Assembly: GCA_937775205.1 (NCBI GenBank)
Contig: CALKBX010000023.1
Coordinates: 1 to 64,000 of the forward strand
DNA length: 64,000 bases
Direction of reading: 5' to 3'
From: an uncultured Verrucomicrobiae bacterium
Lineage (GTDB): Bacteria; Verrucomicrobiota; Verrucomicrobiia; Limisphaerales; UBA1100
In this document: positions 8,187 to 33,316 of the stretch, one piece after another
Layout: every line of letters starts with the position of its first letter
Position numbering within the stretch: position 1 is the first letter of the stretch
The notes under the pieces: model-generated
Told to the model about the DNA's origin: nothing
Database searches by the model: none
Seen by the model: the letters and a program-made list of their open reading frames with translations, nothing else
Translations under genes and position numbers: made by a program

Positions 8187-10091
8187 ATGCGCTTTTTTCT
8201 CTTTCTACTGGCAACGTGGTGTGTCGCGGTGTGCACGGCGAATCAACCGAACATTCTTTGGATTACCGCTGAGGACATGAGCGCGACGCTCGGTTGCTAT
8301 GGCGACAAGTACGCCACCACGCCGAACATCGACAAGCTCGCCACCGAGAGTGTGCGATACACGAAGGCGTTTGCGAGTGCGCCGGTGTGTTCGCCTTCGC
8401 GGTCGTGTTTGATTACGGGATGTTATCCCACTTCCCTTTGCACGCAGCAGATGCGGTCGGGGTTTGCGATTCCCAAAACGATGCGTGGGTTTCCGGCATT
8501 GCTGCGGGCGCGCGGGTTTTACACAAGCAATAATGTTAAGACCGATTACAACACCGGCAACTACGCGGACATCATCAAGCACTCGTGGAACGAAAGCAGC
8601 GCTACCGCGCATTGGCGCAAGCGCGCCGACAAGGAGCGACCGTTCTTCAGCATTTTTAATCTGATGACCTCGCATCAGAGCCGCACGATGGTTTGGCCGT
8701 ACGCGCGTTTTCAAAAAGAGGTGCAGAGCAAACTTTCACCCAGCGAAATCCATGACCCCGCCAAGGTGTTGTTGCCTCCGTATTATCCGGACACGCCGCT
8801 CATCCGGCGCGAGGTCGCGCGCTTTTACGATTGCGTCACGGCGATGGACAAAGAGGTCGGCGCCATCCTGCAACAGCTCGCAGACGATGGCCTCGCCGAA
8901 AACACCATCGTCTTTTTTTACAGCGACCACGGCAGCGGCATGCCCCGCCACAAACGCGCGCTGCTCGATAGTGGAATGCACGTGCCACTCATGATTCGCT
9001 TCCCCAAAAAATGGCAGCACCTCGCGACCGGCAAACCTGGCACCACCACCGACCGCCTCGTGAGCTTTGTCGACTACGCCCCCACCGTGCTAAGTCTCAC
9101 CGGCATCCCAATTCCTGAAGCCATGCAGGGGCAGCCATTCCTCGGCCCAAAAAACACGCGACCTCGCCGGTACGTCTTTGGCCATCGCGACCGCGTCGAT
9201 GAAGTGCGCGACCTCGCCCGATCCGTGCGCGATGGGCGCTATCTTTACATTCGCAACTACATGCCGCACCTCGGCTACAATCAACCGACGGTATGGCCCG
9301 ACAACGGCGAAATCCGCCACGAATTTTATCGGCTCACCGACGAGGAAAAAATGACCGCCCCCCAATGGCATTTCGCCGCCCCCACGCGCGCGGTCGAGGA
9401 GCTCTACGATTGCCAAGTCGACCCGCAAAACCTCCGCAACCTCGCCGACTCCAGAAAACACCAAGCCATCCTCAACCGCCTTCGCGCCGCCCATCGCAAA
9501 CACATCCGCGACACCGTCGACCTCGGCTTCCTGCCCGAAAGCGAGGCCTGGGAAATGTTTAGTGAAAAAACAGGTTGGGAACTCGGCCAAGGCGGCAATG
9601 TGAAAATGGGCGCCATCCACCGTGCCGCCGCCCAAGTGGGCATCGCCGACGAAGCCGCCCTCGCCAAAAATCTATCTTCGCCCAACGCCAGCATCCGCTA
9701 CTGGGGTGCCATTGGCCTTGCGCATCGCAAAGCATTGCGTATCGAAACGAAGCAACAACTCCGCAAAGCGCTGGGCGATCCCTCCCCCGCCGTCCGCATC
9801 GAAGCCGCCAACACCCTCGCTCGCAACGGCATACCCAACCCCGCCATCCGCGCGCTCATTAAGGATCTCGCCCACGAAAACCTAATCATCGTCAGCCACG
9901 CCGCCCGCACCATCGAGCTGCTCGGCGAACAGGCCATCGCCGCCAAAACTCCGATGGAAGCCGCCCTTATCCGCGCCGAAAAAATCCGCCCGCCCGACCT
10001 CTCCCCCGTAATCGTCCTCCCCGGAGACAAAGACCTCGCCATGTTCGTCGCCTTCTCCTGCCGCGCATTCCTGACAAAGTTGGGGAAGTAG
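8187..10091 (+). CDS. Sulfatase with C-terminal HEAT-like repeats
   Basis: Type I sulfatase of 634 residues. ATG 8187 gives a signal peptide (FFLFLLATWCVAVCTA); longer in-frame starts lack one. The catalytic domain covers about 20-480: WITAEDMSATLGCYGD metal site, formylglycine motif C68-S-P-S-R, and YSDHGSGMPRHKRALLDSG with metal-binding Asp/His and lysine. After about residue 490 the chain turns into helical repeats (LAKNLSSPNASIRYWGAIGL, LGDPSPAVRIEAANTLARNG) matching HEAT/PBS-lyase repeats, giving an extra domain of about 130 residues. Formylglycine activation would need a maturase, none of which is certain in this window. It lies upstream of an acetylesterase gene (7-base gap), consistent with co-transcription and joint attack on sulfated, acetylated glycans; the exact substrate is unknown. 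Confidence 0.9.
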   Translation: MRFFLFLLATWCVAVCTANQPNILWITAEDMSATLGCYGDKYATTPNIDKLATESVRYTKAFASAPVCSPSRSCLITGCYPTSLCTQQMRSGFAIPKTMRGFPALLRARGFYTSNNVKTDYNTGNYADIIKHSWNESSATAHWRKRADKERPFFSIFNLMTSHQSRTMVWPYARFQKEVQSKLSPSEIHDPAKVLLPPYYPDTPLIRREVARFYDCVTAMDKEVGAILQQLADDGLAENTIVFFYSDHGSGMPRHKRALLDSGMHVPLMIRFPKKWQHLATGKPGTTTDRLVSFVDYAPTVLSLTGIPIPEAMQGQPFLGPKNTRPRRYVFGHRDRVDEVRDLARSVRDGRYLYIRNYMPHLGYNQPTVWPDNGEIRHEFYRLTDEEKMTAPQWHFAAPTRAVEELYDCQVDPQNLRNLADSRKHQAILNRLRAAHRKHIRDTVDLGFLPESEAWEMFSEKTGWELGQGGNVKMGAIHRAAAQVGIADEAALAKNLSSPNASIRYWGAIGLAHRKALRIETKQQLRKALGDPSPAVRIEAANTLARNGIPNPAIRALIKDLAHENLIIVSHAARTIELLGEQAIAAKTPMEAALIRAEKIRPPDLSPVIVLPGDKDLAMFVAFSCRAFLTKLGK

Positions 10092-26841: not shown

Positions 26842-26945
26842 GGCAATATGGGTGGTTCAGTTGAAAAAACCCTACACCAATAGACGCGCGAGGCAAGCGC
26901 CTATTCGGGGAAATTGCCGGAACCTCCCCCGCGCCCCAGCCGGCG

Positions 26946-26973
26946 TTGACAGCTCTCCCGTGGCCTATACACT
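26946..26973 (+). promoter_or_regulatory. Sigma70-type promoter, leaderless
   Basis: TTGACA (26946-26951), 16-base spacer, TACACT (26968-26973), and 6 bases to the ATG at 26980, so the expected transcription start coincides with the start codon. Confidence 0.6.
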
Positions 26974-26979
26974 AGCGGC

Positions 26980-27835
26980 ATGCGGCAAACCCTTCTTTTA
27001 ATAGCAGCGATGGCGTTGGTGGGGTGTGGGAAGAAAACCACTCCGGCGGAACCTGTAACCAATGCCGAACCCAAGGTGGCAGCAGAGAAGCAGGAGCCAC
27101 CCAAGACCGAACCCAAGCAGGTGGGGAAGAAGCCAACACCACCCAAAGCTTTCACCAACACCTTGGGCATGAAGTTTGTGCCGGTGTCTGGGACGGACGT
27201 TCAGTTTTGCATATGGGAAACGCGGGTGAAGGATTACGCGGCGTACGCGGCGGCGAATGCGGGGGTGGATGAGAGTTGGAAAAACTTTGGCCTCGGGTTC
27301 AAGCAGGCGGACACGCATCCGGTGGTGAAGGTGAGCTGGAATGATGCGCAGGCGTTTTGTGAGTGGCTGACGAAGAAGGAGTTGGCGGAAGGGAAAATCA
27401 AGGCCGGCCAACGCTACCGGTTGCCGACGGATGCGGAGTGGAGCGTGGCGGTGGGGTTGGGCAAGGAGAAGGGAACTTCGCCCGAGGAAAAGAGCCGAGG
27501 CATCAAAGACGTGTACCCGTGGGGCAAAGGGCCGCCGCCTGTGGGGGCGGGGAATTATAATAAGTTCATGAAGTTGGACAATTTTGAGTACACTTCACCG
27601 GTGGGGAGTTTTGCATCCAACAAGGACTGGCCTGCACGATATGGGCGGCAACGTGTGGGAATGGTGCGAGGACAAGTACAGCCCAACCTTCACGCGCCGT
27701 GTGTTGCGCGGTGCGTCTTGGCTCGACGGCAATCCCGACGACCTGTTGTCGTCCAGCCGCGACAGCGGCACGCCCGGTGGTCGCTACTTCAACATCGGCT
27801 TTCGGTGTGTGTTGGTGGGTGGTTCCGGTGGGTGA
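26980..27835 (+). pseudogene. FGE/SUMF1-fold lipoprotein with one frameshift; DGR-target-like C-terminus
   Basis: Lipoprotein ([15 protein letters not shown], lipobox LVGC), Pro/Lys-rich linker to about 55, then a formylglycine-generating-enzyme-sulfatase domain (C-type-lectin fold): [54 protein letters not shown]. Near 27625 the frame shifts; the continuation [20 protein letters not shown] and RVLRGASW lies in the next frame and ends at the TGA at 27833. Repaired length is about 285 residues. Only one cysteine lies near the C-terminus (GFRCVLV), so the two-cysteine site of true formylglycine-generating enzyme is absent and sulfatase maturation is unlikely. The end of the domain has the layout of diversity-generating-retroelement variable regions. 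A single indel may be decay or a consensus error. Confidence 0.8.
27695..27835 (+). other. Candidate diversity-generating-retroelement variable region
   Basis: Codons after RVLRGASW read [28 protein letters not shown]. In C-type-lectin targets of DGRs the template has AAC/AAT codons here and the variable copy has any base where the template has A. Here the matching codons are CTC, GAC, GGC, AAT, GAC, AGC, GAC, AGC, GGC, GGT, TAC, TTC, AAC: nearly all NNC or NNT, exactly what A-to-N replacement of AAY would give. A G/C-rich stretch (27805-27832) follows, like an initiation-of-mutagenic-homing region, then a short inverted repeat GTGATC-GAC-GATCAC (27951-27965). No reverse transcriptase or template repeat was found in the window. 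Confidence 0.5.
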
Positions 27836-28062
27836 GGTTGGCTTCGTTACCTTATGGCCTTGCCCCCTTGAACCTTAGTGCTTGAACCTCAACCCTTCAA
27901 GGCGAGCGAAGCGAGGCTTTGCCCAATTCCTGGACGTGCCCGTGTGGAATGTGATCGACGATCACGTTTACATCCGACGGTGTTGTTTTTGAAAAACGAA
28001 GAGGGCAGCGACCATAGACATTTATGCCCCTTCTTTATTGGTTGCTAGCATGAAAGCTGTTT

Positions 28063-30953: not shown

Positions 30954-31001
30954 GTTGGCTTGCTCATCGGGCCGAAATTCGGGAACATCACCCCACACAA
31001 A

Positions 31002-33316
31002 ATGAGAATCTTTTGGAGCTTAATTTTTCTGGGAGGAGTGGCAGCGACACTGTCCGCGGCACCCGTTGACTTCGCGCGTGAAGTGCTGCCGATTCTTTCC
31101 AACAAATGCTTCGTCTGCCACGGGCCGGATGGGGAGGAGAAAAAGGTGCTGCGGCTGGACTCCTTTCAGGAGGCGACGCGCGACCTCGGCTGGATACACG
31201 GCCATCGACCCAAAGCAACCGAACGAAAGTGAGTTGCTCATGTGCGCCTGCACGACAAGGAGGAGCCGATGCCGCCGCGCAAGGCGGAGAAGCAGTTGAC
31301 AGCGGCCGAGCGCGATGTCCTGACGCGTTGGGTGAAAGGGCGGCGGGAAGTACGCGAAGCACTGGGCGTTCGTCCCGCCGAAAGAAGCTGCGGCCGGACT
31401 GGACGGGCAATGCGGTGGATGCGTTGGTGGGGCGGCAGCTGAATGCGCAGGGGGTTAAATTCGCGCCGGAGGCGGACAAGGCGACGCTGGCGCGGCGGGT
31501 GGCGTTGGTGCTCACAGGGCTTCCGCCGGAGCTCCGCGTTGTTGGAAAAATTCTTAGCGAACAAGAAACCAGACGCGTACGAGCGACTGGTCGATGCGCT
31601 GCTGGCGAGCCCGCACTACGGCGAGCATCAGGCGCGGTATTGGCTGGACGCGGTGCGCTACGGCGACACGCATGGGCTGCACCTCGACAACAAACGCGCC
31701 ATTTATCCGTACCGCGACTGGGTGGTGCGTGCGTTTAATAGCAATCAGCCGCTGGACGAATTCATTACGTGGCAATTGGCCGGTGACCTGTTGCCTAAGC
31801 CGACGCTTGCGCAGCTGGTGGCTACCGGCTTTGTGCGCATGAATCCTTCTACGGCCGAAGGCGGCGCGATTCCAGCAGAGTTTCAGGCGAAGAATAATTT
31901 TGATCGTGTCGAGACGTTGGGCACCGCGCTACTCGGCATGTCGCCTCACCTGTGCGCGCTGCCATACGCACAAGTATGATCCGATTCCGCAGGTGGAGTA
32001 CTATAGCATGATGGCGTTTTTCAACAGCACTGCCGAGTCCTCGATGGATGGTAATCGCTACGAATATGGCCCCACGGTGAAGGCACCGGCGGACATCGCG
32101 GCGTGGGAAAAGTGGGAGGCGATCAATGCTCGGCACGTGAGCCTCACGAAACAGGCAGGAAAAAATACGGATCTAAAACCCGAGGTGGACGCGCTCGCAA
32201 AACAGATCGCCGATTTGAAAAAAAAGTTTGTATCCACGCTTGTGGCACGCGATTTGCCCAAGCCGCGCCAGATGAAACTGCTCGAGCGCGGCGAATACAA
32301 TCTGCCGAAGGGCGAACCATTGCAGCCTGGGGTGTTCGCGGTGATGGGCGCGTTACACAAGGATGCGCCGGCCAATCGCCTCGGGCTCGCGCAATGGCTC
32401 ACGGCGCGCGGGCATCCGCTCGTGTCGCGCGTACTTATCAACCGCGTGTGGCAGCGCACCTTCGGCGAAGGGCTCGTGCGCACGCCGGCGGATTTCGGCT
32501 TGCAGGGCGAGCAGCCGACGCATCCGGAACTGCTAGACTGGCTGGCGGTGGATTTGCAGGATCGCGATTGGAACCTCAAGGCGATGCTGCGGCTGATGGT
32601 CACCAGCCGCACGTTCAAACAAAGCTCGGCGTATCGCGGACAGGTCGATGACCCCGAGAACCGTCTGTGGGCGCGCGGGCCCAGTCATCGGCTGGACGCG
32701 GAGGCACTGCGCGACGTGGCGCTATGGGCGAGCCGTTTGCTCGATAGCTCAATGGGCGGCGAGGGCGTGAAGCCTTATCAGCCCGGTGGTCTGTGGAAGG
32801 CGCTGATGCATCCGGGTAGCAACACGAAAAATTATGTGACCGACAAGGGCGCGCGCCAGTATCGCCGCAGCCTTTATGTGTACTGGAAGCGTACAAGTCC
32901 GCACCCAATGATGACGCTCTTCGACGCGCCGAGCCGCGAGAGCAGTTGCGTGAAACGCTCGCGCACAAGCACGCCCTACGCAATCGCTGGCGTTGCTCAA
33001 TGAAAAACAACGCGTGGAGATGGGGCGCATGCTTGGGCAACGGTTGCTACAAGAGGCGAAGGATGACGCGGGCCGCTTGAACCTGCTCTTCACGCTGGTG
33101 GCCAGCCGCAAGCCGAATGTTGCTGAACGCGTCGCATGCATGAATCTTTTCAGCAAATTAAAAAAGCGTTACGCGGGAAACGCGAAGGACGCGGAGGCGT
33201 ATTTGTCCATCGGCGATTCGCCGCGGGACATAAAACTGAATGCTGCCGAGCACGCGGCGTGGTCGCAACTGGCCATCACTGTGCTAGCCAGCGACGTGGC
33301 TCTTTGGGTTTATTAA
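31002..33316 (+). pseudogene. PSD1 gene (PSCyt1-DUF1549-DUF1553) with at least seven frameshifts
   Basis: Reading across frames gives a nearly full-length PSD1 protein: signal peptide IFWSLIFLGGVAATLSA, PSCyt1 heme motif C-F-V-C-H, MPPRKAEKQLTAAERDVL, DUF1549 ([39 protein letters not shown]), a second heme-like [11 protein letters not shown], and DUF1553 (NRVWQRTFGEGLVRTPADFG, RRSLYVYWKRTSPHPMMTLF). The frame changes near 31195, 31240, twice between 31335 and 31385, 31540, 31955 and 32985. The conserved motifs themselves are not eroded and few stops have accumulated. The stop overlaps the region of the DUF1501 ribosome site downstream. PSD1 proteins are exported heme-containing partners of DUF1501 proteins; their reaction is unknown. 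Confidence 0.85.

Follow-up and report, generated by a model that had tools for sequence, protein, structure and literature searches.

A dispersed family of verrucomicrobial lipoprotein genes with the features of remote diversity-generating retroelement targets

The window, a 64,000-nucleotide stretch from the genome of an uncultured Verrucomicrobiae bacterium, carries a lipoprotein gene that is very probably a remote target of a diversity-generating retroelement (DGR), as a preliminary description had proposed. The gene is one of about ten paralogs whose variation is almost confined to the positions that hold A in an actual DGR template of a related family, and the variable regions (VRs) of this family have been rewritten since the species of the genus separated. 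No DGR-type reverse transcriptase (RT) and no template were detected in seven assemblies of the genus. Since the window gene behaves as a DGR target and its genome does not show a complete DGR, the copies are best described as an orphan or remote DGR target family. Remote targets are missed by DGR surveys that start from the RT (PMC8144416); setting paralogs and orthologs against a template from a related genome reveals RT-less targets and dates their rewriting.

The window gene and its variable region

The features of the locus, in window positions, are as follows.

26980-27630, plus strand: N-terminal part of the formylglycine-enzyme (FGE) fold lipoprotein gene, in frame 1, with the lipoprotein signal and PF03781 profile positions 35-175
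27614-27835, plus strand: C-terminal part of the FGE domain, past the frame break near 27,625, in frame 3, with PF03781 profile positions 172-254 and a TGA stop at its end
27697-27819, plus strand: DGR variable region, with the sites matching template A at 27722-27794
27796-27832, plus strand: A-free, G/C-rich end of the VR, resembling an initiation-of-mutagenic-homing (IMH) site, a role it may fill; nearly invariant in the genus
27836-27919, plus strand: conserved non-coding 3' segment common to most copies and to sister species, putatively functional, with an imperfect hairpin at 27898-27919
26907-28055, no strand assigned: stretch for which sister species G001 and G002 have only about 100 nt at the corresponding site, and which is lacking in G004 as well

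The sequence and the open reading frame translations show a lipobox, with the codon for Cys16 at 27025-27027, and Pfam places an FGE-sulfatase domain (PF03781) in the gene, which bears out the earlier assignment as an FGE-fold lipoprotein. The domain follows frame 1 until about 27,624; its frame 3 part begins at about 27,614 and runs to 27,835. Because one domain is split over two frames, the assembled gene is interrupted by a frame break near 27,625, where the sequence is GACTGGCCTGCAC. An FGE lipoprotein thus does lie at 26980-27835 as first described, but in two reading frames, and the break between them had been missed. The window copy as assembled is either a pseudogene or an assembly error. 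In intact copies of the family PF03781 reaches the C-terminus, and the intact copy on contig C3 matches variable protein 1 of Treponema denticola (2y3c, E 2.6e-6) as well as structures of sulfatase-modifying factors. In all likelihood, then, the window gene encodes a lipoprotein with the FGE fold whose last ∼40 codons are a DGR VR. Elsewhere in the window, a gene of the cytochrome-c/DUF1549 type at 30960-33316 is apparently broken into several frames.

When the copies are aligned, the blocks CCGTGTGTTGCGCGGTGCGTCTTGG, CCTGTTGTCGTCC and TCGGCTTTCGGTGTGTGTTGGTGGG are identical, synonymous sites included, and between these blocks the differences fall on positions one and two of NNC or NNT codons. 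At the variable codons of five copies, 79 of 80 third positions are as a template predicts, an agreement with a chance of ∼1e-28 under the window's own codon usage when the shared ancestry of the copies is ignored. For D, N, Y, F and I, codons ending in C and in T are about equally frequent in the window genes. The codon signature first noticed, NNC/NNT codons between fixed ones, is confirmed, and the G/C-rich stretch reported to follow it is real, being a 37 nt A-free run (27796-27832) nearly invariant across the genus. The small inverted repeat, also reported, is present at about 27898-27919, but it is imperfect and its fold is no better than that of shuffled sequence.

Copies in the genome and the genus

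At the DNA level the source genome of the window (G000; an assembly of 3.25 Mb in 31 contigs, 92% complete) has ten copies of the gene, the window copy among them, spread over seven contigs. The other nine, overlooked when the gene was treated alone, have 73-90% identity with it. Scattered over the genome, copies occur singly or in small tandem pairs, their gene bodies look mosaic, and in several of them homology begins at the ATG and stops about 84 nt past the stop codon. The genes that flank the window copy adjoin each other in G001 and G002 across a gap of about 100 nt; G004 is without the gene too, so that the window copy is, most simply, an insertion in the G000 lineage. Within the genus, copies appear to have been gained and lost. 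The tandem pairs on contigs C13 and C4 have duplication flanks about 99% identical around lipoprotein genes that are far more different; C13:143500-150500 and C4:110500-118500 form a segmental duplication whose tandem lipoprotein genes differ by up to half.

Frame breaks occur in nine of the ten G000 copies, and copies in sister species are mostly intact. Thirty long open reading frames occupy most of the window and most of its other genes are intact, so the breaks are concentrated in the lipoprotein repeat family and a generally poor assembly was rejected as their source. The genes may be changing or decaying rapidly, or copies of the repeat may have been mixed during assembly. Nine broken copies in ten are what a decaying family is expected to show, and this counts against the remote-target reading.

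A proxy template from another family

An all-A template was guessed from the aligned copies and then searched for in relatives. In G052 (CAIUEN01, an uncultured Verrucomicrobiales MAG of another family in the same order) it matched stretches better than any VR of that genome. These belong to a DGR that comprises a target gene with a VR, a template (TR1), a divergent gene matching bAvd (PF22296), an RT with GLPIGNLTSQ and a further template (TR2) inside the RT reading frame. The closest solved relative of this RT is 8ub7 (E 7e-36), which we take to be the DGR RT of a Bordetella phage. TR2 is 89% identical to the guessed template and, as part of a canonical DGR, serves as an independent proxy template. 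Two templates, the second in frame within the C-terminal open reading frame of the RT gene itself, are found in verrucomicrobial DGRs at two loci, L099 (G052 C358, 2848-4780) and L141.

Among five indel-free G000 copies 28 of the 30 TR2 A columns vary, as against 4 of the 93 other columns (p = 3.7e-21), and with sister species added the counts are 30/30 and 7/93. The earlier DGR-target reading is thus upheld by about ten paralogs whose variation falls almost entirely on the A positions of a real template. At the template-A sites of ten VRs (300 cells) the bases are A 109, G 100, T 75 and C 16. DGR misincorporation has been described as roughly equal among bases (PMC8144416), and the rarity of C counts against a DGR unless selection removes it.

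Rewriting since the species separated

Orthologs of one locus, that on G000 contig C5, lie between the same flanks in G003, G001 and G004. Between C5 and its G003 ortholog (contig C48), identity is 97% and 96% in the flanks, 91% in the gene body and 95% at the non-A sites of the VR, and falls to 40% at the A sites. For the ten indel-free VRs of the genus, pairwise agreement at A sites is 35%, the value expected of independent draws. A-site agreement at the C5 locus is 60% with the G001 ortholog (C398) and 40-43% with that of G004 (C26), two comparisons that include an in-frame length difference, and the effect size is accordingly taken from the C5/G003 pair only. A sites at 40%, close to the 35% of unrelated VRs, between flanks at 96-97% mean that the VRs were rewritten after the species split; on this between-species comparison, diversification took place in the genus after its species had separated. 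A-specific variation, whose absence together with that of any template or RT from a complete genome would, by the preliminary description, have left an ordinary lipoprotein, is strong between paralogs and between species alike, so that this refutation does not apply.

Search for a reverse transcriptase and template

The preliminary description saw neither RT nor template near the window gene, and we found none there. It also suggested looking elsewhere in the genome for an RT and a near-identical A-rich repeat; neither turned up in the 92%-complete G000 or in six congeners, which fits its alternative of a remote target or an orphan. BLAST and pattern searches gave no template in these seven assemblies (five of them 92-95% complete), and an RVT_1 search and the G052 DGR RT as query gave no DGR-type RT in them. 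The G052 type of RT is absent from all 20 sampled genomes of the family, the sole exception being a weak match in G015 to a nadA-linked RT discussed below; the same query matched 29 of 146 relatives, several through non-DGR RTs. A search for the accessory protein Avd, run without a positive control, gave no match in 40 relatives. An AAC-rich match of 20-27 nt on C13 and C4 was rejected as a template, since it lies within the coding region of a dehydrogenase-like gene.

Of the 17 copies or fragments in congeners with fragmented assemblies, 12 sit no more than 70 nt from the end of a contig, and the bins could therefore easily lack a cassette that has repeats of this kind on its flanks. This caution applies less directly to G000, with its long contigs, but about 8% of that genome is missing.

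The template pattern was found, among the species genomes, only in G052 and in one MAG labelled Methylacidiphilum. Plasmids and phages gave no matches or short ones to the conserved FGE core only, and pattern scans did not find the VR blocks of the genus in viral contigs. A looser template pattern picked out two viral contigs with a different template and their own RT. The viral contigs L137 and L138, identical over 5.2 kb, carry a DGR RT, an FGE target with a VR and a template that codes for NRNNNTPDNRNNNIGFR, and the neighbouring genes look phage-like. In another genome (G055 C4, locus L101, about 8370-8810, minus strand) a large NTPase-FGE gene has at its end a VR and, adjoining it, an A-rich template; searches gave no DGR-type RT in the 96%-complete assembly, which makes it a second RT-less case.

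The nadA-linked reverse transcriptase

The RVT_1 search found one RT in G000 and in each congener bar the 73%-complete G006. That of G000 adjoins nadA and is broken by a frameshift; it is intact in several relatives, and within the family it is confined to genera g1 and g5. Its best model is RT_UG26 (E 1.1e-33; residues 94-438, profile positions 67-388 of 398), and by sequence its nearest assignment is to the unknown group RT_UG26, a candidate defence RT, with that function putative. In place of the GLPIGNLTSQ of DGR RTs it has G[VI]AFGTAIACFFAN, and so lacks the GNxTSQ motif. In a tree its position as sister to the DGR RTs is weak (support 0.74) and its branch very long, and among solved structures its closest relatives are group II RTs, ahead of 8ub7. 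An ungapped, A-tolerant scan for a template beside it gave noise only. At the loci in G000 (C10:46709-48107, L002) and G004 (C45:54569-56056, L064) it adjoins genes for large proteins, some with an L7/L12 C-terminal domain.

How the variable regions may be rewritten

In the mechanism that we propose, an RT would copy an A-rich template RNA, making errors opposite A, and the cDNA would replace the 3' end of the window gene and of its roughly nine lipoprotein paralogs. Randomisation would thereby fall on NNC/NNT codons whose residues presumably face the ligand, and W, P, LLSS, R, TP and IGFRCVLV would be restored in each round. The RT and template would act in trans from outside the present assemblies, and the products may be displayed at the surface and bind ligands. 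Most likely the cassette has stayed out of the assemblies or was lost recently; a gap in the bins, or a place on an unbinned element, is a likelier explanation than loss in all species, and the balance tips slightly towards a cassette that still exists in the genus and has escaped assembly.

The cassette may instead have been lost in the ancestor of the genus, with the VRs as frozen remnants of old diversification. The lack of a DGR RT or template in the genus and the family and the broken frames of nine G000 copies would suit such a history, and a similar one has been proposed for T. denticola isolates without RT and template (PMC4891356). The orthologs, however, differ at A sites like unrelated VRs while their flanks are 96-97% and their fixed VR codons 95-98% identical; rewriting therefore postdates speciation, and an ancestral loss, though credible, is unlikely. 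Recent loss within each species separately is possible. Hardly credible is a reading as an ordinary lipoprotein of the FGE fold, diversified by selection, whose NNC codons are a product of C-ending codon usage. FGE-domain proteins are indeed common in G000, but C- and T-ending codons are near parity in the window genes and third positions nonetheless follow the template, the variation falls where TR2, a real template of another family, has A, and the TR2-column, C5/G003 and third-position results already contradict this reading.

Recombination among silent copies, a gene conversion like that of pilS or vls, could shuffle VRs without current reverse transcription, and about ten copies, mostly frame-broken, with mosaic-looking bodies and conserved islands around the variable block, are what it would work on. 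Yet pairs of VRs share A-site letters, and runs of them, no more than columnwise shuffles do (p 0.46 and 0.16). Haplotype sharing at chance level argues against a simple conversion process among the copies sampled, and gene conversion can move A-directed variation but cannot create it; we consider it distinctly unlikely. The nadA-linked RT might itself diversify the VRs as a non-canonical, DGR-like enzyme. Every g1 genome with a detected RT has this one and no other, g1 and g5 are the two genera of the family with close lipoprotein homologs, its frameshift in G000 coincides with the breakage of most targets there, and its place in the tree is, with weak support, beside the DGR RTs. Against this stand the missing motif, the RT_UG26 match, the closer group II structures, the lack of an adjoining template and several g5 genomes that have the RT but weak FGE matches only, and such a role is very unlikely. 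We are similarly doubtful of the broader proposal that the genus rewrites dispersed lipoproteins with neither a canonical DGR RT nor a resident template, through the nadA-linked RT or through a mobile RT and template. If closed genomes were to hold no RT, the remote-target reading would need A-directed hypermutation to be the work of a different enzyme, or of a mobile element acting in trans.

Comparison with known systems

A close parallel is the TvpA DGR of T. denticola (2y3c), which likewise has lipoprotein targets of the FGE/C-type-lectin fold and several remote VRs, and some isolates of which keep target genes without RT and template (PMC4891356). RT-less target genes are thus already known, and the window family is a further case. 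Other strains of T. denticola carry the cassette, whereas here neither template nor DGR RT was found in any of seven genus genomes and the VRs differ between species at orthologous loci. G052 has a template close in sequence to the one guessed for the window family, but its RT, Avd-like gene and templates lie on one contig and its targets there are large FGE-tailed proteins rather than short lipoproteins. Cyanobacterial DGRs resemble the present family in having many dispersed paralogs with VR-like C-termini in one genome, and differ in that those genomes carry the cassette (PMC7517822). Five Bordetella phage records match the G052 RT. The DGR of Bordetella phage BPP-1 works by the A-directed mutagenic retrohoming that we assume here; its target (Mtd) is phage-borne and in cis, unlike the remote lipoprotein family of this genus.
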